Shown piece by piece: positions 3,430-59,357 of a DNA stretch of 64,000 bases. The position numbers and the translations under genes are program-made. The stretch is from Scatophagus argus (Eukaryota; Chordata; Actinopteri; Scatophagidae). The DNA is taken from the NCBI RefSeq assembly GCF_020382885.2, contig NC_058495.1, positions 2,287,627-2,351,626 of the forward strand, in the 5' to 3' direction. The notes under the pieces were generated by a model. The model was given only the letters and a program-made list of their open reading frames with translations. It made no database searches and was not told the origin of the DNA. Position 1 is the first letter of the stretch, and each line of letters opens with the position of its first letter.

Positions 3430-4574
3430 CTCAGGAGGTTGAACCTGAAGTCAGTTTAGTGTCTATTCATCAGAGGAAGCGGCTGTCACCAACAGGGACA
3501 ATGTGAGTACCTTTAAGAGCCCAAAGCTCAAACTGTGATCTAACTGATCTCTTTTTAATTTGATTTTCCATTTTTTTTTCATTCAGATTTTATTTTTTGT
3601 CACTCTTCTGTAATGTGCGTCTTCCTCTGTTATGTGACTTACGTTGTCCATCCATGTGGAAGAGATTTGTGATTCTTTCAGGCAACAGAACAGAAAAACG
3701 TTCCTTTTACAGTTAAAGGTATACTACGTAGAATTTAAAATAAGTGGGAGTAGCAGCAGCATTTGTGGACTTCACTGATTGACAGAGGTCATTCTAAGAT
3801 GTTCACATGGTTGTTTTAACATTTATGTAAGTTTTTCTTTGCAGCTTTAAACCAACCTGTGGACAGCCTTTCTTCTTCTTTTTTTTCTTTTTGTGTGCTT
3901 TTTTTTTGATTGACTAGAACTCAGTGAATTGATTGGCCGAGCTGATTAGGTTTAGACATGAGAAGTGAAATTGATTAGGCTCAGGGTAAGACTGTTAGAG
4001 AGAGGCTGAGTGGGAGGGTTTATTGCAATAAGAGTTGGATCAATCAAAAGGTATCCTATTTTTAAAAAGTCCAAAAATCTTCATTTGGATTCGAATTTAA
4101 ATAATATTCAATTTCATTTGAAAGACAAAAGCTTTAGTTTGTTTCTTCACAGAAAAAAGCAGCATGTGGAGCTTAAATTCAGCAGTTAGGTGGTACATTT
4201 TTTGATTTTTGATTTTTTTGATGATTCTATTATATTTAGACTCAATAGCTCTGCACTGCTCTGCACAGTCAAGATGTGTTCATCATTCATTAAATGAACA
4301 ATACTTTTTTTTTTTTTTTTTACACAGAAAAAAAATGGAGCTTAGAATTTTTTTTTCTTCTGTGTGATTTCATTTAAATATAACAGTTGCAATGAAAATC
4401 AGTCTTTGGTTGAATTGCTCTCAGATGTTAGACGAGGGGATGCGAGTGGATGTTTCTCCAGGGGTAATGAGCCAATGAAGCTGTTAACTGCCAATCTAAC
4501 TAAACAAATAACAGACACTAATCTAGAAACAACATATTTTTTCATACTCCCTGTTCTTCCATGTGTTCCAGAAG

Positions 4575-11943: not shown

Positions 11944-12541
11944 ATGAACACTACGGTGCAGCAGCAGGGGGGGAGCCTGCGTTCTCGCCGAGGCCTTGGT
12001 CGGGATAAGGACCCTGGGCAGAGCATGGGTATGGAGACGGCCTGCTGGCTTGCCCCTGGAGTGCTGCGAAGGCTGATTGAGCTGCCGTCACCTCCCCTCT
12101 CCCGACACCAGCTCAAGAGACTGGAGGAGCACAGGTAACAGTGATTTATGCTCGTCAGACTGAAGTACCGCATGTGGAGTTATTTAACGCTATCCACAAG
12201 CAAAAGTCTGCAACTCAACTAAACAGATCTCTTTTAAACTTTAATTTTGTTACTGTTCCTGACAGAGGTGTTCATACTGAATGTCTTTTAAGCCCTACAG
12301 TGGGTTCTGGTGTTGTAAATAAGGTTAGCACATCTATCAGAGGATAAACAATAACAATAACAATACAACTTCTGCATTTCATGGTATTTAAAGTACCAAG
12401 AGTAAAAAAAAAGAAAAAAAGAAAAAGATCTACAATCAGATTTTCAACCCAAGGCTGCACAGATTTTAAGGTTATTACAAATGTTTTGATATTTGTACAG
12501 TGACTTCCTGTACCAGTATCATAAGAGTTGTTGTTAATTAA

Positions 12542-12583
<42 letters not shown>

Positions 12584-15500
12584 GTTGCCATACGTTCAAA
12601 TTCTGGTGTTGTGACAGCCCTAGTTCTGAAGAGTTATTATTTTATGCAAATTAAGTGCTCAGGTTTGGAACAATGTAAGGGATCAACAACAGGGATTGCC
12701 AACTTACCACCCTGGGCTACTAAGCCGAGCAACTCTCTTGCTGATTGGAAAAGTGAAAAGAATTTAACTTGCACCTTTTTACAGAACTGTTGAAGGAAGT
12801 GCCTAAGGTGTGAGCCCTACACGTACAACTGTAAATGTAAATGTAATGTACTGACCTATACAAGTTGGACAACATGTCTCCTCCTCTTCCCACTGTACAA
12901 AAGCGAGGCCAAATATCCAAGATAGGAGTGCTGTCATCGGAGCCTGCAACAACACGGTAGTGATCAGGCATTGGAGCTGCGTCATTTAGTTCCTGCCCAT
13001 ACACCCATCTGAACCAACTACAAGCAGATCTTAGCTGTCAGTCATGATGTGTTAACGCATTATTTTAACATCAAATAAGTAATTAAAACCAAACTTGAAC
13101 TCTCGAACATACAAGTGTGAAAAGAACTCCTGGAAACAAGAGTTTAGATGGGTGGTGTTAGAGGATGTGGGCACAACTCCCAACTGTGCATTGCACAGAT
13201 TTCTGTGAGTTTAAGGAAAAGATGAATAAGATTAAACGATTCGTTTCAGTCTGTGTTATTATTGTCTCAGTCCATCCAGGGGCAGTCAGAGAAACTGACC
13301 ACTTGAGGTCACCTGTTAATGTCATATCTAAAGTAATTAAACACTTTCATTGGTGGTATACATAACATTACTCAATAATAGTCATGTATGTTCAAAAGCA
13401 AGAACAATGGTCCAGTTATAGTTTCAGAGAAATGCTTGTGGCAGTGGTTTCATGTTGCTGTGTTTGTTCCACTGTTCTAAACCCTGGAGGTGAGACGTGA
13501 GTTACAATTTAACCAGAGATTCTGTCGTTCTGTCTACCAGCTGTTTGTCACTCACACTCCCGTCTGAAATTGCTGAAAGGTGATCACCGAAATTAGTTAT
13601 GTAGTGAAGATTTGTTTTTGAACAGCAAAAAGGCAAAGTCCTTATTTATTGACAAACACTACAATCATGTGCAGCACTATAGTGCTGGCCAAGGTTAAAT
13701 GTAGAGACACCAACTTACTGGGAGCATATTAACAGCCAAGATGTGGTTTGTATGCCTCCACACCATAAACTGCACATTAAATAGTGGACTGAGTCACTGC
13801 TAGGTCGCCCATAGGTTTCTGAAGACCTATGCAGTACATGAAGTTTAATGTGGGCGACTCTGACCATCACCATCTTGGAAGAGCCTGGCTGCACCCAACT
13901 CCTGCCTGATCAAAAAATGTAAAATATCAAAAGTGTAAAAGTTTTACAGTTCAGAGTCCAGAAGTACAGGTAAGCAATTCAAGAGAGAAATTTCTGGCTT
14001 GAACTGTCACATGCTAAAGGTTGTAAGGATATGCTTATTATGCAGCTTGAAACTGAATGAGAAGATCTGTCCATGCAGGTACAGCAGTGCTGGACGCTCC
14101 CTCCTGGAGCCTCTGATGCAGCGTTACTGGGAATGGCTGGTGGGACGAGTCCCCTCTTGGATTGCTCCAAACCTTATCACCATAATCGGCCTTGCCACCA
14201 ATGTCTTCACCACCCTGGTGCTGGTCTACTACTGCCCAACTGCCACTGAACAGGTTAGTCGTCACTGTGTAGGGTCTTCATGGTAAAGCATATTAAACAC
14301 GCTAGAATTCACATCATCGACACACATACTGTTTTCATACACTAATTAATGCCAGTTGCTTCTGCTCGACTGTTGCCATTGAAAACATGCAACTCATGCA
14401 GAGTAGTGAGTAGTAATGAAAGAAGTGTTGAATTTGCATTTGCAGCAAATTCAAACAGAAGTGGATCATAAAACAGGGAGGCTTCTTATCAAAACATGAT
14501 CAAATATTGGAAAATTAGAAATTAAGGCCTGTTGTAAACTAAACAGTCAAATGCAAAATCAGATTGTGAGATTTGCTTTAAATTGTTGTAAAATGTTGGT
14601 TACTAAACTCTGTATTAAATTTTTTGGAACAGCTAACTTCTGTGTGATACATGTATAAACAACAGTATTTATATTAATAGCTATTTCCCCTGGATGTCAT
14701 GGGCCCAGAGCCTTTGCCTCTGCTGCCTAGCAGACAGTGGTGAGCACATTTGATTACAGGGATTATTAATAAGCATCACCTTTTGTTATGAGGGAATGTT
14801 CAGACTGTCCAGTCATAAAGAGTAGCAGATGCTGTCTTCGGGTGTCAGTACTGTAATTACTGACCAAAGCGTGTTTCTTTATTCATGAGTATTACACACA
14901 TTGTTGTACACTGTATAAGGTTTTTCATTCTATGTGTTGTCACCTGATCTGATGAGTTCTGAAGCTCTGAACTTGGAACTTACTCAAATCAGTTTTGTTT
15001 GTGGCCTTCAAGGTAGGGTGAGTGACAACTGCTTGGATGTGTGTGTGTGTTCTTTCAGGCTCCTCTCTGGGCATACCTGCTGTGTGCTGTGGGTCTGTTT
15101 GTCTACCAGTCATTGGACGCCATAGACGGGAAGCAGGCCAGACGCACCAATAGCAGCTCTCCGCTCGGCGAGCTGTTTGACCACGGCTGCGACTCCCTTT
15201 CCACTGGTCAGTTTTTTTTCCCCCTATTTGACGCTGTGTTCCGCTGTGTCCCAGTGAATCTGAAGCCCTTTTAGTAGTGCCTGCACTCATGTGGGTTGTC
15301 TCCGCAGTGTTTGTGGTGTTGGGAACCAGTATAGCAGTGCAGATGGGCACCAACCCAGACTGGATGTTCTTCTGCTGCTTCGCCGGGATGTTTATGTTCT
15401 ACTGTGCCCACTGGCAAACCTATGTGTCAGGAACGCTGCGCTTCGGCATGTGAGTCAGCAAGATTGTTTTTTTGTTTAAAGGAATAAGTAGAGCATTTGC

Positions 15501-18500
15501 AGCCATTTGTCTGTCAGTAATGCTCATATCAGGGGTTAGAATTCAATCCTTAGCAGGTTGGTTAGTAATGTTATTTTTCTACCAATGTGATACCTGAATT
15601 ACAGTACTGATTCCAAAATATGTTGCAAAAGCTTTTCTCCACATTTAACAAAACACTCCAAATGCATATCAAGTGCATAGGTATTTCATGTTTTTCTGAT
15701 GATTAAAAAAAACATGCTAATTTAGTCAAAAGAAAATGAACTGATTGTGTATTTAAATTAAATCTGATCAAAAAACAGGACATGGTTCAAGGGCATCACA
15801 GCTGTCAAATGTCCTTCTGTTAGTAGTATTTAGTTTGTGTTTTCCTTCTTTCTCTCATTGAGTCTTTGTTTTCTGTCGCTGTAGTTAAAATGAAGATTTG
15901 AATTTCCTGTTAGTCAGTTGTCAGTAGAACAACTGGGTTATACTTTAGTGTCAGTCATTTCATGAGATTGTAGCAGTTAGGTGTGGAGTAGTTGAGATGG
16001 AGTAAATGTGGGTCTATTTTTTGTATAGATTTGACATAACAGAGGTGCAGATCTGTCTAGCAGGATTACAGATGCTCACAGCCACTGTGGGTCCCTGCCT
16101 GTGGAACATGATGGTAAACCTTGTGGCTGTTGCTGCATGGCTCACTGCTGTCTTCTTCCCCAGTGGCTGCTTACTAGCATGGAGTCAATATGAACAATCT
16201 GAATTCAGTCCATTCTGCTCAAAGGTGCAGTCAGTCAAATCTATCTCTTCAGTAGCATCAGCTGACAGAAAACTGCTTTACAGCTGCTAGAACTGACAAA
16301 TACTCGTGTCAGACTGTCATGGAGGTTTTCCACAGAGCCAGCAGGAAATATTACATGAAATGCTTAAAATCAAGTTTGACTTTTAAATCCAGACACACTG
16401 TTGAGTGTTTGTAAAGTGCAACTCTGGCAAGTCACTCTGGAAATCTATTTTATAATCAACAGATTTAACCAATTCACATCCCATTGTAAAAATTGCAAGT
16501 GTCGTAGTACGCAGCAGTAATAGCAATTACCTCATGAACTCTCTCCAGGAGTCTGCCTTGACTGAGTGGGGCAATTGAAAATCATTCTCTAAAACAGTTG
16601 GCGTCGCAATTAATCTATTTATGGGCTAGTACACATAATAATGAACAGAAAAAAAACATGATAAACACACAGTAAACATTCAACAACTTTCTGACAGTGC
16701 AGAGTTCAGATGGATATCAGTCTGGTGTCCAGTGCTAACCATGGCTAACCTAGCTTAGCATGAAGACTGGAAGCAGGGGGAAATGGCTGTGCAAAGTTCA
16801 AAACGACACGTATGAATGCCTCTTAGGTTCACAAATTGATACTCATTATCTGTACACACACTGAAATGTAAAAACGACAATTTGTGGTTGACAAGCGACT
16901 GGGTGCATGTCTGTCTGGAGTTTCCTATATGTGCTTAGCAGTGGCACAGTGACAAAAACATTCTAAAATATATCAGCAGTCATTGAGTCATTTTTGTTAA
17001 AAAAAAAAAAAAGCCAGTGAAATATTATTGACTGCATTTTTAATGCAGTGATTTTTTTTCCTGTTTAATCTTCAGTTCTCCATTAAACATGAGTAGCGCA
17101 GAAGAATAGCATCCCGTCAGTTCCATGTCCAGCAGTGTGTTGTGGAAGAAGGCTTCAGGATGACTGTGTGCTGGTAGATGTCACTAATCCTTCCTGTAAA
17201 CTCTGCTTTCTCCTCCCACTCAGCATTGATGTGACTGAGGTGCAAATCTTCATAATAATCATGTATTTGCTGGCCGCCGTGGGAGGATCTGCTTTTTGGC
17301 AGTCACTGGTAATTGTGATCGGTTCTAATTCTTACAGACTGAGATTAATGAAACAAATGATGTCATAATTATGTAAAATTGCTTTTGTTGGTACATGAAG
17401 GACTGCTCTAACATTCTTGTTTTATTAGAATTATTATTAGAAATGCAGAGAATGTCAGTGTGAATGCTTTCACTTTTCTCTAACATTACTCATGATGTTT
17501 CACTGTGGATATAAAAGTGAATATACTCACAAATCACAAAACCAGCTGGAAAATGACAGTGTTGATCAACACATCATCAGATGTTAATGTTTGACCGTTA
17601 TTGTCATTCCTTAATTTCAGTGTTTTCTGGTCTTGACTCATAGATTCCGATCCTCAATATCCAGATGAAAATGGTTCCTGCCATCTGCACATTTTTAGGA
17701 GCCATCTTCTCCTGCACCAATTACTTCAGAGTCATTTTTACAGGAGGTGTGGGCAAAAACGGATCCACAATAGCAGTAAGTTTGAGAACTTTAGTGCTTC
17801 TCCTGATTAGTTAGGCCTGTCTGTCAAGGTGGATATTGTTCCATCACAGATAGATCACTATAGAAAAGCTTTGATAATTTTTATCCCCTAGTTGTGCCTG
17901 TCTTTTTTTGTTAGCAGGACATTTGTCTCTAAAATACATTAGCAGTTTCTTTGTCAGTTCTATCACTGATAACTTCTCTGCGCCCACTTGTCCCAGAGTT
18001 GTTGGCCGGCGTCTCTTTTTTTAGATTTTCTTAGCTGCTGTTAATTAACAATAAAATTGTGTTAGTCAACCACATCGAAAATCAAAATGGTCAGCCACTG
18101 TCATTGCTAAATTTTCTGGTACTTTTTAATGTGATTCAAAGTTTTGAAGCAGAATAAGTACGTTGTTTTTCCATTAGCAGCAGTTCAAACATATTCTGTC
18201 AGAGCAGCTCTCCTTTTTTGTGTTTTTGTTCTTACCTAACCATCTGTATGTTTATTGTGTTTTTGTGTGTCTGTCTTCAGGGAACCAGCGTCCTCTCTCC
18301 AGTCTTACATATTGGTTCAGTTATAATTTTGGCAATGATGATATACAAGAAGTCTGCTGTCCAGCTCTTTGAGAAACATCCATGTCTTTATATCCTGGCA
18401 TTTGGCTTTGTCTCGGCCAAAATCACCAATAAATTAGTTGTAAGTCAAACCTGCTTCTTTGTACGGGGGAGGTCAAACACAATTCTGAACAATTTGAACT

Positions 18501-20162
18501 CGGGGGGGGGGGGGGGGAGTAAAAAGTTTAAGGAGCATTTTGAGATATTTAGGTTAAATCTCAGCAGACATATGTTCTAGGATGTGTTCAGTATAGCCGA
18601 GTATATTACAGATTACAGCAGAGGGAGACTGCTAGCCTAACTCAAAGAGAGAAAAGGTTACCTCCACAGAACTCCAAAGCTGGAAGCTCTAACTAAAAAT
18701 TAAAACTAAAACAAAAAAAAAACCTAAGCTAAAACTCACAAAAAAAGGGATCAGTAGAATGTTAAGAAATGTTACTGTTATGTCAAAAGCATCTATATAT
18801 TGTATTACAGACATATTAACTGAGGTTAACATGCTAACCAGCTCAGCCCGTCCTGTGTCATTATACCGCTTTGTACCTCAAAGTGATGGTCAGAAAGTAT
18901 AGCTCAGCCCTGTGAAGGTGGCCACTGTCTCAAACTGGCCCTCGCCAGTCCATTAGTCTGTGGTTACTCTGGTGATAGACTGCCCCTGTTTTGTTGGGTG
19001 AATTTAATGGGTAACCAATTCTTACATATCGCACCTTTAACATTGGCTGAATTATAAAAGAAGAATTCTCTGTTGAGAACTTAGGCTAGCCGTCGTTCAT
19101 CATCAGAAAGTATATTTAACATCTTACAAACGATAACGTGTCTGTTTCTCTAATTTCAGCCTTTGCCTTGTGAACTGGTTATTCTAAGTTTGTATTTGAG
19201 CTGTTTTTACCACATTAGTTTTGAGTTCATTTTGTTGCCATCTCAACAAAAGTTGTTAGTAACTAGACCTTATTGCAGAGAAATACAACATTTATCCCAA
19301 CATACTGATAAAACCACCATACTAAAAACGAAAAAGTGCACTTTACAGCGTCAAAGGTTTACCGTTTAGAGATTTCAGTGAAGAAATGTTAACTGTTGTC
19401 TTTGATGCTGACAGTGTTTTACTCTATCCACAGGTAGCACATATGACAAAAAGTGAGATGCATCTCCATGATTTAGCCTTCCTGGGACCAGGATTATTGT
19501 TCCTGGATCAATATTTCAATAGTTTTATTGATGAGTACCTGGTGCTGTGGATCGCATTGGTAAGTATACATGAAAGTCTCATTAATGAGGTAGTGACTCG
19601 TATTTTTATGAGCTATGATGACAGATATATGGCATGCTAAGTCAGAATAATGGGACTGTGACCCTACATCAAAAGTGTGCAGTACTATATACACCGTTGA
19701 CATGTATAAAAACGTACGATGCGCCTCCACGTCCTCCCATTGTACAAAAGTTAATTAACATTTTGACATAAGATTATGTAATTATGACAACCAGTCAAAA
19801 GTATCATTTTTTTCAAGTTGAAATTATAAGACACAAAGTCAAAATTAAGAGCTAGTGTATCAGAACTATTAAATGTTGAACATTTTAAACATATGAAGTA
19901 AAACACGTGACTCCTGTTGTACCTTTTTATAGTTTTTTTTACCTTCTGATACTGTGTTACTATGTGTTTCCATAGTGTGTAGATCTCCCCTGTTTCTGCT
20001 TCAAAAGAGTGACGGTGTTTTGTTTTTCCTCTCCCACAGATCATTTCCTTTTTTGACTTGGTGCGTTACTGTGTCAGTGTTTGCAACCAGATTGCCTGCC
20101 ATCTTCACATTTTTGTTTTCAAAATCAAGCCTTGTTCAGTGCTCAGTTCAGCTCCTCACTGA
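11944..20162 (+). CDS. cept1: Choline/ethanolamine phosphotransferase 1
   Basis: Final enzyme of the Kennedy pathway. It transfers phosphocholine or phosphoethanolamine from the CDP-alcohol to diacylglycerol in ER/nuclear membrane. Coding exons: 11944-12134, 14079-14253, 15059-15206, 15308-15449, then one of 16029-16113 or 17224-17308, then 17644-17775, 18281-18439, 19434-19559, 20040-20162. Either version gives 426 residues (human CEPT1 is 416). The catalytic CDP-alcohol phosphotransferase motif is intact at residues about 142-167: D142, D145-G146, A149-R150, G159, D163 and D167. Multiple transmembrane helices follow, and the C-terminal region ([22 protein letters not shown]) is strongly CEPT1-like. 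The N-terminus ([11 protein letters not shown]) is typical of CEPT1 rather than selenoi. The ATG at 11944 is the first in frame after the acceptor at 11831; a second Met lies at codon 28. The fifth intron holds the extra exon described separately. Confidence 0.95.
12546..12576. repeat. (TA)n microsatellite in cept1 intron
   Basis: Perfect TA dinucleotide run in the intron after the first coding exon. Confidence 0.9.
16029..16113 (+). CDS. cept1: cept1 alternative exon 6a (transmembrane segment, variant form)
   Basis: This 85-nt exon is flanked by an acceptor (TTTTTTGTATAG) and a donor (GTAAAC). Joined to the AT left by the preceding exon, it reads [13 protein letters not shown]..., ending LWNMM, and it leaves phase 0 for IPILNI in the next exon. 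It aligns with exon 6b without gaps: 10 of 28 residues are identical, including D-T-E-V-Q-I and the W near the end. It is thus a tandem duplicate of the canonical exon that has diverged while staying open. Human CEPT1, as I remember it, matches 6b better. It would supply an alternative TM5-like helix. Confidence 0.85.
17224..17308 (+). CDS. cept1: cept1 canonical exon 6b (transmembrane segment)
   Basis: This 85-nt exon follows a strong polypyrimidine acceptor (TCTCCTCCCACTCAG) and ends CAGTCACTG before GTAATT. It reads [13 protein letters not shown], ending FWQSL, very close to the human CEPT1 segment. Splice phases are identical to exon 6a. Using both exons, or neither, would shift the frame. 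Confidence 0.92.
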
Positions 20163-44072: not shown

Positions 44073-47000
44073 GATAAAAGATAATAACAGTGGTACATGT
44101 TTTGGTGTCAACATAATACCTTTTTCAGAACTTATTCTCAATTTCCCGTATGCAGTTCAGCACATGATGAGTGACTCAGCAATTACTGACTCGCAGATGG
44201 GACCCCGTGTCTTGGTCCACAGTCAAACAGATGTGATTAAATTCTGAGTAAAACAAATGACAGTCTGTTGTTGTTTTGTGCTGCAGAGTTGATAAAGAAG
44301 CGTGACCTGGAGAAAGATGAGCTTCGCCCCCTCTATATGGACTTCCAGGCCACCACACCCATGGTAACCATCACCAACCATGTTGTCATGGTTATAGGAA
44401 GATGTTACAGTACAGTTTAACCTGTATGTATGTGTGTGTCCGTTGGTTTGTAGGATCCTCGGGTGCTTGATGCTATGCTGCCCTACCAGGTGAATTACTA
44501 TGGTAACCCTCACTCCAGAACACACGCCTACGGCTGGGAGAGCGAGAGTGCCATGGAGACAGCCAGGAAGGTAGAGACGCACAGTTTTAAAATAAAATCA
44601 AGTGTGATGTAAAGTTATTTTACTTTTTTATAGTTACGTTTCACTGTGTAGTAATGCTTAAAGCACTAGTGGCCTTATTTCTTACAAATTCAGAATTTAG
44701 ATTGTAAACACTGTGGTATTTAGTTGTGGTGATCAGTCCTTCCTGAATTTGAGAGAGACATGGACTGAGTGTTGTCTCTCTGCATGTGTCTGAGTAGCAG
44801 GTGGCTGATCTGATTGGAGCAGATCCCAGAGAGATCGTCTTCACCAGCGGAGCCACTGAGTCCAACAACATGGCCATCAAGGTTACCCTCTGCTCTTTCT
44901 CTTCATCACTCCCACTTTCTTGCCTGCTCTCTGTCACACCTTCTTGCCTCCTCTCACCACTACATCCTTTTGTTTTGCTTGTTTTGTTTACAGATAAAGA
45001 ACTCAGGGAACACAGAGAGTTCATTTAGAACAGGAGATTAGTTAACCAGAAATTAATCTGTGTCTTTGTGGAATATGTGTGTCTACTTGCAGAGCTGAGC
45101 TGGTGAACTAACCGCTAACATGTTTCCCAGGTGGGCTTGTGCTATTCAGTGATAGTAGCTCTTCAAGCTACTGTTTCCTCTGCATAATGCTGTTAGCTCT
45201 CCTGGCTGTTTTTCACCTTTATACACCCTTTAGTTCAATAAAATGTTTTTGAGGCGGTACAATGAAGATCTCTGACTGTTAGCAGGTTTACCAGCTCATT
45301 TTTTAGCTAGTCACTAATGGTAAAATAAGTTCACAGTTCATTTGAAAGATGTAACTGTACCATGAACTTCTGTCCCATGACTGTCTGCTAACCTTTGCTG
45401 TTCCTACTCTGACAGAGGAGGTTACATAAAACTGCATGGTGACACACAGCTTGGTTTTTTCCATTTTAGAGTTTTTGGTTGAGCAGTTTGCTTGTGCTCA
45501 TTGACCTGAACTTGCATGTCCGAGTTCACTAATCACATGAAATCCACTCAGACGAATTTATTTACTCCGCAAAATTTTGCCATTTCAAATACTAGTGTGA
45601 CGATATCTTGAGAACACATTAAGAGCAGAATGAGAGTGCTGTAAGAACTCGGAGAGAGCAGTCAAAAAGTGAAAGAACAATAATAAAACAAGACAGATTT
45701 GTGATGTCAGTAGTGACCCCGTCTCTCTCTTTCCTGCAGGGTGTGGCCAGGTTCTACCAAGCCAAGAAGCGTCATGTGATCACCACACAGACAGAACATA
45801 AATGTGTTCTGGACTCGTGTCGAGTTCTGGAGGCTGAAGGATTCAGCATCACCTACCTGCCGGTCCAGAAGAACGGACTGCTGGACCTTGAGGTACACAT
45901 GCTGAGCGTACAGAGAAATCACACCAGAGATCAGCTTGTACTGAGAACATCAAGAGTATTCAGACAACATGCAGAAGTCAAAATATGAATTATAAACTGT
46001 GTGTGTCTGTGTGTGTTCAGCTGTTGGAGGCCTCCATCCGTCCTGACACCTCTCTGGTGTCGGTGATGACGGTCAACAACGAGATTGGAGTCAAGCAGCC
46101 CATCAAAGAAATCGGTAACCATGACATCACAAACATGTTACTCAGTCCTCACGTGAAGCAGAAGTCAGTTTACTGAAACATTCATGTATGCGTTGTTTGA
46201 TCAAAATATAACTGTGATGATGTAAAACCTTCACCAATTTCCTGATCTTTACTGATCTGACTATTGATTAACTCATCTTGACTCTTTCTGTCCTCAGGGA
46301 AGATTTGCCGTTCTAAGGGAGTTTTCCTCCACACTGATGCTGCTCAGGCTGTCGGAAAGATTCCCATAAATGTCTCGGACTGGAAAATTGATCTGATGTC
46401 CATCAGTGGTCACAAGATCTACGGACCCAAAGGTTAGCAGCACGTGCTTGTTTTGCAGCTGAAATGGGAACTAGCTGAAATACTGAAAGCACTGAAATAC
46501 AAATGCTGAATGAAGCTAAAATAGCTGTGAAAATGGAAGTGATGAGAGAAGTTTCAGTTGAAGTGCAAGCACTAAATAAAGGAAAGAAGGAATCAAGGAA
46601 GCATTTAAAAATGATAGCTGCTGAAAGGTAATTTAAATTTCAGTGTTAGTTAAGATGTAACAAGCAAAAACAAAGCGTTGTAAATGAGTGTTAAAATGTA
46701 AATGAGTAAAACAGAATTTGAAACCTCATTTACAATGTAAGTTAAAGAAACAGAAGGAGGTTTTTATAAACGGGTATACTGTAGCTTCCATGTGTTCCAT
46801 GTTGACAGTGGGAACATTCAGATGACCTAAAGTCATCTTGCCTGTGTTCTAGAAGCTTCCTACTGTAGCGACCGTCCTTCTGTTGTTTGTTCGAAATTTC
46901 CTCAGATTTGTCACAAATGTGCACTTGGACTCAAAGATGACCTGACTAGAATCTGGTGGTCAAAGGTCACTCTGACATTACAAAACACATTTTGGGCCAT

Positions 47001-56650: not shown

Positions 56651-56678
56651 GTTGTAGGGCTGTTGTTTAGCAGTCAGT

Positions 56679-59357
56679 ATGGCAGTAGTCATCAGGCTGC
56701 AGGGTCTGCCCATAGTGGCCGGCACCATGGACATCCGACACTTCTTCTCCGGGCTCACCATCCCTGACGGGGGAGTGCACATCGTTGGGGGTGAGCATGG
56801 TGAGGCCTTCATCGTCTTTGCCACTGATGAGGATGCCCGTCTGGGGATGATGCGTACAGGTGGGTCCATTAAGGGCTCCAAAGTGTCGCTTTTGCTTAGC
56901 AGCAAGACAGAAATGCAGAACATGATTGAACTCAGTCGCCGCAGGTTTGAGGCTGGAGCAGGCACTGTGGAAACAGCTGTACCTACAGGAGGAAATGCCA
57001 ATCGACAAGTGGCTGCCCCCATTCCCACAGTGCAGGCAGGTGCGAGAAGCAGTAACCATGGAAACCAGAGTTTCAGTAACACCTCAGCCTCAGTGACGGC
57101 AGCAAGCACATCTCAGGAGCCACAAAGCAACAAGGCAGTGGCCAGCGTGGTGCCCAGCTTCCCTAACAGCTACACCTCTGCCCCAACAATCACCACAGCT
57201 CTGGCATCACTTAATGCGGGCCCCCCACCTATCCCTCCCCTTCCAAGCATGCCTTCCATGCCCCCCATGCCCACGCTGCCCACCATTCCAGTTCCTCCGC
57301 CAGTGTCCTCCCTTCCCCCTGTCCCTACTGTCTCCCCACTGTCCCAAGGCCCTCCGGTACCTCCTATGTCCCACCTCCCTCACATGTCCTCCCTGCCTCC
57401 TTTCAACCCTTCCCTACCTCCTCCAGCAGGACTGGGCTCCGGCCTCCCCCTTGGAAACCCCAACCCCATGCTCTTCAATCCTCTCTCCCCCCTGGCCTCT
57501 CTTGGTCTCCAGGCCCATATGAAGGCTGCTGCTGCAGCCAGTGGAGCAGGAGCAGTCAGTCCTGATGAGTTGTTTGTTCTCCTGCAGAATCTTCCATTTT
57601 CCTGCTCAGAGGTGGATGTTAGGAGTTTTTTCCGGGGTCTGGGAGTGGATGGGGTTCGTCTGCTGAGGGATGGACAGGGCAGGCCAAATGGCAGGGCCAT
57701 GGTAAAGTTCTTCTCACCCCAGGACAGCTTTGAAGCTGTGAAGCGGGGAGGTGGTATGATGGGCCAAAGGTTCATTGAAATCACCCCAGGTTCTGAGCGG
57801 CAGTGGGCTAGCCTCAATGACAGTGCCACAGGCCAAGCTCCTCACAATAACATCAAATCAAATAATGAGTCACAGGACCAGCAGCATCGTCGTGGTAATA
57901 CTGGGGCTGGAGGCAGGGATCAGCGAGGAAGATCACGTTCTCCCCACCGGCAGGAGTTCTGTGTCTACCTGAAGGGCCTTCCATATGAGGCAGATAAGAA
58001 ACAGATAAAGGAGTTTTTTAACAATTTGGACATGATCGAAGACAGTATCTACATCGCCTATGGGCCCAATGGGAGAGCCACAGGAGAAGGCTTCCTTGAG
58101 TTCAAAACAGAACAGGACTACAAGACTGCTCTGGGTGCTCATATGCAATACATGGGCACCCGCTTCATCCAGGTCCACCCAATCAGCAAGAAGGGAATGC
58201 TTGAAAAGATTGACACCATCCGCAAACGTGAAGCAGCACAAGGTGATGGAAAGAGCCAGGATGGCTTGAAAACTCCCAGGAACTGTGCCCACATCACCAA
58301 CATCCCCTACAACGTGTCAAAGAAGGATGTCCGTGCCTTCCTGGAGGGTGTAGGGCTTTATGAGGACACCCTGAAGGTCCTGACAGATAGTCATGGCAAT
58401 GGTTTAGGCCAAGCTATCTTCCAGCTGAGGACTGAAGAAGATGCCCGCAAAGCTGAGAGACTGCACCGGCAAAAACTCAATGGCCGTGATGCCTTTGTCC
58501 ATCTGGTGACATTTGAACAGATGAAGGAAATTGAGAGGAATCCTCCTCCGCAGAACAAGAGGGGCCAACGCAACCAGAACCAGTTGAACCAAAATCAGAA
58601 TCAACACCAGCAAGCCCAGCCCAGTCCTCAGCCATCCCAGATCAACCCATTTGCTGGCATTAGTGGTGAAGAGTTCAACTTTCTCAGAAACACCATGGGA
58701 AACCTGAGTAGTGCCCCTTTTGTGACTCCATTCTCAGCCCCAGGGAATGGGCTGGCAGGACCTCCTCCTCTCCCTCCTCTGGCAGCAGGACTGGGGGATG
58801 TGAATTTGGGCGTGGCTCCTCCCCTTGTGGCTGGGCTTCCTGGAGCTCCAATCCTAGAGCCACCGGGCTTTCGACCCGGAGCTGCTGGAGGAGCCCCTTT
58901 CAGCCAGGATGGACTTAGAGGGTTGGTGCCCTTTGACAATGCCAACAGAAAAGGAGGTGGAGGAGTACAGAACCGAGGGGGAGGGGCTAACAACAACCAA
59001 GGACATCCAGGGGGCAGGGCTGCAGGTGGACAGCAGGTGTTCACTCCTGGAGCTGATGGTCTCCGTAATCCACCAGCCCCTGGAGGAGCTAACAATCCCA
59101 ACAGTCGCGGTACTGCTGGTCCCACAATCGTAAAGCTTCAGAACATGCCGTTTACTGTAACTGTGGATGAGATTATGGACTTCTTTTATGGCTACCAGGT
59201 GGTGCCAGGCTCAGTCTGCCTGCAGTTCAGTGAAAAAGGCCTGCCAACTGGTGAGGCGATGGTGGCCTTCCAGAGCCATGAGGAGGCCACAGCCGCTGTC
59301 ATGGACCTCAATGATCGACCTATTGGAGCACGCAAGGTCAAGATAAGTCTGGGTTAA
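56679..59357 (+). CDS. rbm12: RNA-binding protein 12 (SWAN), intronless coding region
   Basis: A single 892-residue open frame (human RBM12 is 932), preceded 28 bases upstream by an acceptor at 56650. Domains: RRM1 about 3-78, proline-rich segment about 180-255 (PPIPPLPSMP type), RRM2 about 296-372 (LFVLLQNLPF), RRM3 about 425-500 (FCVYLKGLPYEA), RRM4 about 535-610 (AHITNIPYNVSKKD), a Gln/Asn-rich then Gly/Pro-rich linker, and RRM5 about 815-892 (IVKLQNMPFTVTVDE). The fold order and the start MAVVIRLQGLPIVAG are as in human RBM12, an RNA-binding nuclear protein. Long antisense and off-frame open frames here arise from its GC-rich composition. Downstream order matches human (NFS1, then RBM12). 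Confidence 0.97.
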   Translation: MAVVIRLQGLPIVAGTMDIRHFFSGLTIPDGGVHIVGGEHGEAFIVFATDEDARLGMMRTGGSIKGSKVSLLLSSKTEMQNMIELSRRRFEAGAGTVETAVPTGGNANRQVAAPIPTVQAGARSSNHGNQSFSNTSASVTAASTSQEPQSNKAVASVVPSFPNSYTSAPTITTALASLNAGPPPIPPLPSMPSMPPMPTLPTIPVPPPVSSLPPVPTVSPLSQGPPVPPMSHLPHMSSLPPFNPSLPPPAGLGSGLPLGNPNPMLFNPLSPLASLGLQAHMKAAAAASGAGAVSPDELFVLLQNLPFSCSEVDVRSFFRGLGVDGVRLLRDGQGRPNGRAMVKFFSPQDSFEAVKRGGGMMGQRFIEITPGSERQWASLNDSATGQAPHNNIKSNNESQDQQHRRGNTGAGGRDQRGRSRSPHRQEFCVYLKGLPYEADKKQIKEFFNNLDMIEDSIYIAYGPNGRATGEGFLEFKTEQDYKTALGAHMQYMGTRFIQVHPISKKGMLEKIDTIRKREAAQGDGKSQDGLKTPRNCAHITNIPYNVSKKDVRAFLEGVGLYEDTLKVLTDSHGNGLGQAIFQLRTEEDARKAERLHRQKLNGRDAFVHLVTFEQMKEIERNPPPQNKRGQRNQNQLNQNQNQHQQAQPSPQPSQINPFAGISGEEFNFLRNTMGNLSSAPFVTPFSAPGNGLAGPPPLPPLAAGLGDVNLGVAPPLVAGLPGAPILEPPGFRPGAAGGAPFSQDGLRGLVPFDNANRKGGGGVQNRGGGANNNQGHPGGRAAGGQQVFTPGADGLRNPPAPGGANNPNSRGTAGPTIVKLQNMPFTVTVDEIMDFFYGYQVVPGSVCLQFSEKGLPTGEAMVAFQSHEEATAAVMDLNDRPIGARKVKISLG

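Follow-up and report, generated by a model that had tools for sequence, protein, structure and literature searches.

Probable mutually exclusive twin exons for the fifth transmembrane helix of CEPT1 in Scatophagus argus

Between exon 5 and exon 7, the cept1 gene of Scatophagus argus carries two stretches of 85 nt, here called A and B, either of which could fill the same place in the mRNA. Does this gene have two alternative exons for a single transmembrane helix, used one at a time, and if so, what would the exchange of one helix for the other do to the enzyme? We considered these questions in the window, that is, the whole 64-kb stretch of DNA analysed, beginning from a sequence-only reading in which such a pair had been proposed. 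In our judgement A and B are very probably a mutually exclusive pair of working exons. The genomic sequence points this way through the homology of the two exons, their equal length and phase, and a frame logic under which only mRNAs carrying a single twin would be translatable.

The gene is closest to CEPT1 rather than to CHPT1, and a separate chpt1-like locus is present on contig C22. A 282-residue stretch of the product spliced through B aligns from end to end with human CEPT1 (8gyw), at an E value of 9e-171 and 570 bits, while the same stretch scores 455 bits against 9uet and 447 bits against 8ero, two vertebrate CHPT1 chains that we take to be those of human and Xenopus, respectively. The Pfam domain CDP-OH_P_transf falls at residues 29-143 of the product, ahead of transmembrane helix 5 (TM5). 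Among the solved CEPT1 and CHPT1 chains (8gyw/8gyx, 8ero/8erp and 9uet), exon B matches TM5 of human CEPT1 at 23 of 29 residues. When a 55-residue stretch containing the A helix was compared with the PDB, three distinct chain sequences were matched, at E values of up to 1. The A helix is absent from all three, and human CEPT1 again ranks first among them, with 75.6 bits. The parts of the gene that concern us are as follows.

11944..20162, plus strand: cept1 coding span from ATG to stop, coding exons 2-10, from our reading of the sequence and from the B product against human CEPT1 (8gyw)
15308..15449, plus strand: exon 5, upstream of the twins, ending ...GGC AT, with two bases carried over
16029..16113, plus strand: twin exon A, the extra TM5 exon, 85 nt and 29 codons, recognised by its frame, its homology and its single genome match
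16114..17223, plus strand: intron between the twins, 1110 nt, removed as such only when A is joined to B, in an mRNA that stops at once
17224..17308, plus strand: twin exon B, the human-type TM5 exon, 85 nt and 29 codons, 23 of 29 residues as in human CEPT1
17644..17775, plus strand: exon 7, downstream of the twins, entered in phase 0

A pure run of 16 G bases lies farther along the gene, at 18502-18517, in the intron after exon 8. Elsewhere on the plus strand of the window, a single open frame of 899 amino acids with four RRM stretches (Pfam RRM_1) extends from 56658 to 59357; it resembles RBM12, whose coding region is likewise contained in one exon. An open stretch at 45623-45988, also on the plus strand, has an aminotransferase class-V match and looks like an exon of NFS1, the gene for a cysteine desulfurase that neighbours RBM12 in human.

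The coordinates and the common length of 85 nt that the sequence-only reading had given for A and B proved exact. Both exons have AG and GT ends, with TATAG before and GTAAAC after A, and CTCAG before and GTAATT after B. The two also share the entry and exit described for them, following the same AT-ending exon 5 and leaving in phase 0; with the two carried bases, each amounts to 29 codons. The intron from exon 5 measures 579 nt to A and 1774 nt to B. The count of 10 identical residues in 28 was likewise correct, and becomes 11 of 29, with 18 differences, when the split codon is included. At the level of DNA, 43 of 85 bases are identical, and for six of the 11 shared residues the codons differ.

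It had been further argued that using both twins or neither would break the frame, so that any working mRNA must contain exactly one, and in-silico splicing agrees on both points. The A-only and B-only forms stay open through exon 7, and they alone do so: when A is joined to B a stop follows after one codon of B, and when exon 5 is joined directly to exon 7 a stop follows after eight codons. Because both and neither each give an early stop, exactly one twin is needed for a full-length protein, and it is from the reading frame that we deduce the term "mutually exclusive" for this pair. A and B have three of the features by which tandem exons of this kind are recognised, being homologous neighbours of equal length and phases whose joint inclusion or joint skipping breaks the mRNA. 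As a usual rule, an mRNA with a stop upstream of several further exon junctions is decayed. Since the stops in the "both" and "neither" forms are so placed, these mRNAs should be decayed as well, presumably by the nonsense-mediated pathway.

Frame and decay provide the only exclusion visible at this locus, and a regulator would have to be inferred. Steric exclusion between the splicing of the twins was ruled out, because the intron between them is 1110 nt long. We also considered whether exclusion might be enforced by base pairing between exon B and the intron upstream. There are 13 inverted repeats in the region, and the pairing that was tested, which includes the repeat 15885-15900 / 17243-17258, was no better than chance, being equalled or surpassed by 156 of 200 shuffled introns.

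A chance origin of A is excluded. Within the 1774-nt intron closed by the B acceptor, A is the sole open candidate of the form AG-85-GT, and its BLOSUM62 score against B is 56, a value reached by none of 3000 dinucleotide-preserving shuffles of that intron (the best shuffle scored 26). Open candidates of the same form number 60 on the plus strand of the 64-kb window, A and B included, and 64 on the minus strand. No third twin exon was found among these stretches on either strand, the best after A scoring 11 (plus strand) and 8 (minus strand), against 56 for A itself.

The search for copies and relatives was extended to the genome (570.7 Mb in 48 contigs), in which exon A has a single match, by DNA search and by protein search alike. 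A search with the B-form protein finds cept1 on C3, one chpt1-like gene on C22 and one further relative on C19, which we take, by name, to be selenoi-like; two further matches are weak (E 0.4-0.5). The TM5 exon of chpt1 is also 85 nt long, with the same boundary (locus L014, reverse complement 4402-4486). No A twin was found in chpt1 when the A helix was searched by tblastn over the 10-kb locus, introns included: the known exon was returned at E 9e-4, and everything else at E 0.43 or worse. The intron of about 1.2 kb behind the chpt1 TM5 exon likewise holds no twin by tblastn. The intron in front of it (intron and exon together, L014 reverse complement 4284-4486) is about 118 nt long and offers little room for an upstream twin; in cept1 the corresponding distance is 579 nt for A and 1774 nt for B. 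In the selenoi-like gene on C19, a 10-kb stretch around the match gave nothing better than E 0.12 for an A twin. Pattern scans of collections of genome contigs and viral contigs returned 62 and 163 matches, respectively, none of them confirmed as a protein relative.

We suppose that a tandem exon duplication inside cept1, probably an old one, gave rise to two alternative TM5 exons that would be used one at a time. As reference rows for TM5 we used five helices, those of this genome's B and Chpt1, human CEPT1, human CHPT1 and Xenopus CHPT1. B agrees with this genome's Chpt1 at 19 of 29 residues, and A agrees with each of the five at between 8 and 12 of 29. Two histories are compatible with these 29 residues: A may have diverged from B before the split between CEPT1 and CHPT1 and have been lost in chpt1, or A may have evolved fast.

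What, then, would the choice of exon change in the enzyme? With residues named as in human CEPT1 and placed by alignment, the exon carries D212 and TM5, and this gives an identity to the "one transmembrane helix" of the earlier reading. TM5 of human CEPT1 takes part in the chamber that holds the acyl tails, which has its opening towards the membrane at the gap between TM5 and TM6; the residues lying on the acyl tails include V213, V216, F219 and I220 from TM5, and Q217 seems to bond the sn-1 carbonyl (PMC10156783). In mutants of the human enzyme, activity falls by 60% with Q217L and by 40% with V216L, and is also lowered with D212N (PMC10156783), while for V216A an altered use of diacylglycerol is quoted from earlier work (Henneberry 2002, via PMC10156783). 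For Xenopus CHPT1, the structure report suggests a slit between TM5 and TM6 as the entry for diacylglycerol (PMC10182977).

Of the six TM5 residues named for human CEPT1, three are unchanged in exon A (D212, V216 and Q217) and three differ (V213I, F219C and I220L). Together with the further changes I221A and I222G, this turns F-I-I-I at 219-222 into C-L-A-G. The sum of residue volumes over 219-222 is 424 cubic angstroms in A, 690 in B and in human CEPT1, and 485-589 in the three CHPT1 proteins. Summed in the same way over the named contacts 213, 216, 217, 219 and 220, the volumes give 726 for A, 780 for B and 679-706 for the three CHPT1 proteins; most of the drop in A falls at 221-222, positions that are not named as contacts.

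The sequence-only reading had suggested that the choice of helix could change either the substrate preference or the shape of the lipid site. The second part is plausible because the exon is TM5, which belongs both to the acyl-tail chamber and to the TM5/TM6 cleft. In the A isoform the lipid-touching D212, V216 and Q217 would be retained, and C-L-A-G in place of the bulky F-I-I-I should widen or loosen the chamber and the cleft; we regard a roomier or looser chamber and gate as about an even prospect. A change in the handling of acyl chains seems the most likely consequence, and an effect on the head group less likely. In a comparative study, CPT1 (CHPT1) has a stronger preference than CEPT1 for polyunsaturated alkyl-acyl species, and the two enzymes are similar among ordinary phosphatidylcholine species (PMC8387743). 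An acyl effect is therefore possible, yet differences in TM5 need not have a large one.

The first part of that suggestion, a switch between choline and ethanolamine, is less supported. CDP-choline is mainly surrounded by TMs 1-3, with the choline near Glu65, outside the twin exon (PMC10156783), and A and B have the same polar TM5 residues, D212 and Q217, close to the head-group site. Some effect on the head group may occur all the same, because TM5, together with TMs 2 and 3, is described as coordinating the head group of the bound product and so takes part at this site; the catalytic cavity is surrounded by these three helices and the transverse helix (PMC10156783). CHPT1 proteins, moreover, differ from CEPT1 at TM5 219-222 and transfer choline, while CEPT1 takes both choline and ethanolamine. 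A difference of location is another form that the switch might take, as CPT1 is placed in the trans-Golgi network and CEPT1 in the ER by the comparative study mentioned above (PMC8387743). Weighing these points, we are doubtful that A and B encode two enzymes whose exchange sets head-group preference, location or membrane fit in place of acyl handling.

All of this supposes that A is a working exon. Seven columns of TM5 are invariant in the five reference helices, and A keeps six of them (D, T, E, Q, G and W), with V replaced by I in the remaining one. For a helix with 11 identities in 29 residues, the hypergeometric probability of keeping six of the seven is 0.0055; the test is scored by identity to B, which is also among the five reference rows. 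We also simulated drift, starting from B (not the ancestor) and applying 42 random base changes, and 86 of 2,000,000 runs ended stop-free with at least six of the seven invariant residues and at least 11 identities. This constraint on the sequence is indirect evidence in favour of A as a working exon. The splice sites of A look weaker than those of B. Its donor scores 1.41, against 2.78 for B, and is the lowest of the nine cept1 donors scored with a donor matrix; the 22 nt upstream of A contain 12 pyrimidines, against 18 of 22 for B. The mean Kyte-Doolittle value of the helix core is 1.46 for A and 2.16 for B. Weaker-looking sites would fit a regulated or minor exon, and would fit a fading one equally well.

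The splice sites could accordingly be read in another way, with A as the dead relic of an old exon duplication, formerly used and now rarely or never spliced in. The weaker donor and the shortage of pyrimidines are compatible with such a history, as is the distance of A from B, with 11 of 29 residues in common, when B and Chpt1 of the same genome have 19 of 29 in common. We consider this unlikely. The frame, the length and both splice dinucleotides of A are intact, six of seven invariant residues are in place where the bases agree at 43 of 85, and drift from B reproduces this retention only in the 86 runs mentioned, although a recent loss of use is compatible with that test. Very improbable is a mainly regulatory A, whose joint inclusion with B, or the joint skipping of both, would tune the amount of CEPT1 through decay-bound mRNA with the protein change incidental: the early stops with several junctions still downstream would serve this purpose, but the frame of an A-only mRNA stays fully open through exon 7, and a poison exon would have no need to retain a TM5 in which D, T, E, Q, G and W are conserved.

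Our preferred reading is that A and B are alternative working exons, both presumably spliced in vivo, with B as the probable default and A used in particular tissues or conditions; B is inferred as the default because its splice sites look stronger. Going further, one might propose that a single cept1 gene yields two enzymes by exchange of TM5, and that the A form, with C-L-A-G by the lipid cleft, has a preference for diacylglycerols that are bulkier or more unsaturated, such that splicing would set the fatty-acid make-up of new phosphatidylcholine and phosphatidylethanolamine. Under this proposal, which we put forward tentatively and with the balance of our opinion against it, A may predate the CEPT1/CHPT1 split and have been lost from chpt1. 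If it is true, membrane fatty-acid make-up would be settable by splicing at the last step of the Kennedy pathway, besides later remodelling. CEPT1 makes most of the new choline-phospholipid in HEK293 human cells (PMC8387743). How CEPT1 chooses and releases lipids was left open by the structure paper (PMC10156783), and a natural swap of an acyl-chamber helix would be a ready-made experiment on both.

Twin exons are a well-known kind of arrangement, and, as far as the titles and abstracts of the open-access literature go, the case of cept1 is apparently without a published description; we found none there, and the sequence-only reading likewise knew of none, while allowing that the pair may be known in some lineages. 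CEPT1 occurs nowhere in the main texts of two human exon catalogues (PMC9741552, PMC5740500). Two published mentions of CEPT1 near splicing, one of a human intron-retention variant and one in a sheep gene list, do not describe twin exons in the passages concerned. Both isoforms may already be listed automatically in gene databases.

Another point of comparison is ACSL, an enzyme unrelated to CEPT1. As in cept1, the ACSL1 and ACSL6 genes, which also encode an enzyme of lipid metabolism, have a mutually exclusive exon pair for a short element, one proposed to control the entry of fatty acids (PMC1543647). The same source reports ACSL1 and ACSL6 transcripts with neither exon (PMC1543647), whereas skipping both in cept1 breaks the frame. 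The ACSL pair is backed by RNA evidence, and the cept1 pair is a prediction from genomic sequence. The cept1 twins are also like the tandem-duplicated exon substitutions and mutually exclusive exons of human genes, which, as described in two catalogues, are homologous neighbouring exons included one per transcript (PMC9741552, PMC5740500). Exon lengths not divisible by three, as in A and B, are given there for 377 of 629 human clusters of mutually exclusive exons (PMC5740500), and among 236 human tandem-exon events, close to two-thirds are traced to the vertebrate ancestor, and teleost orthologues exist for more than 90% (PMC9741552).
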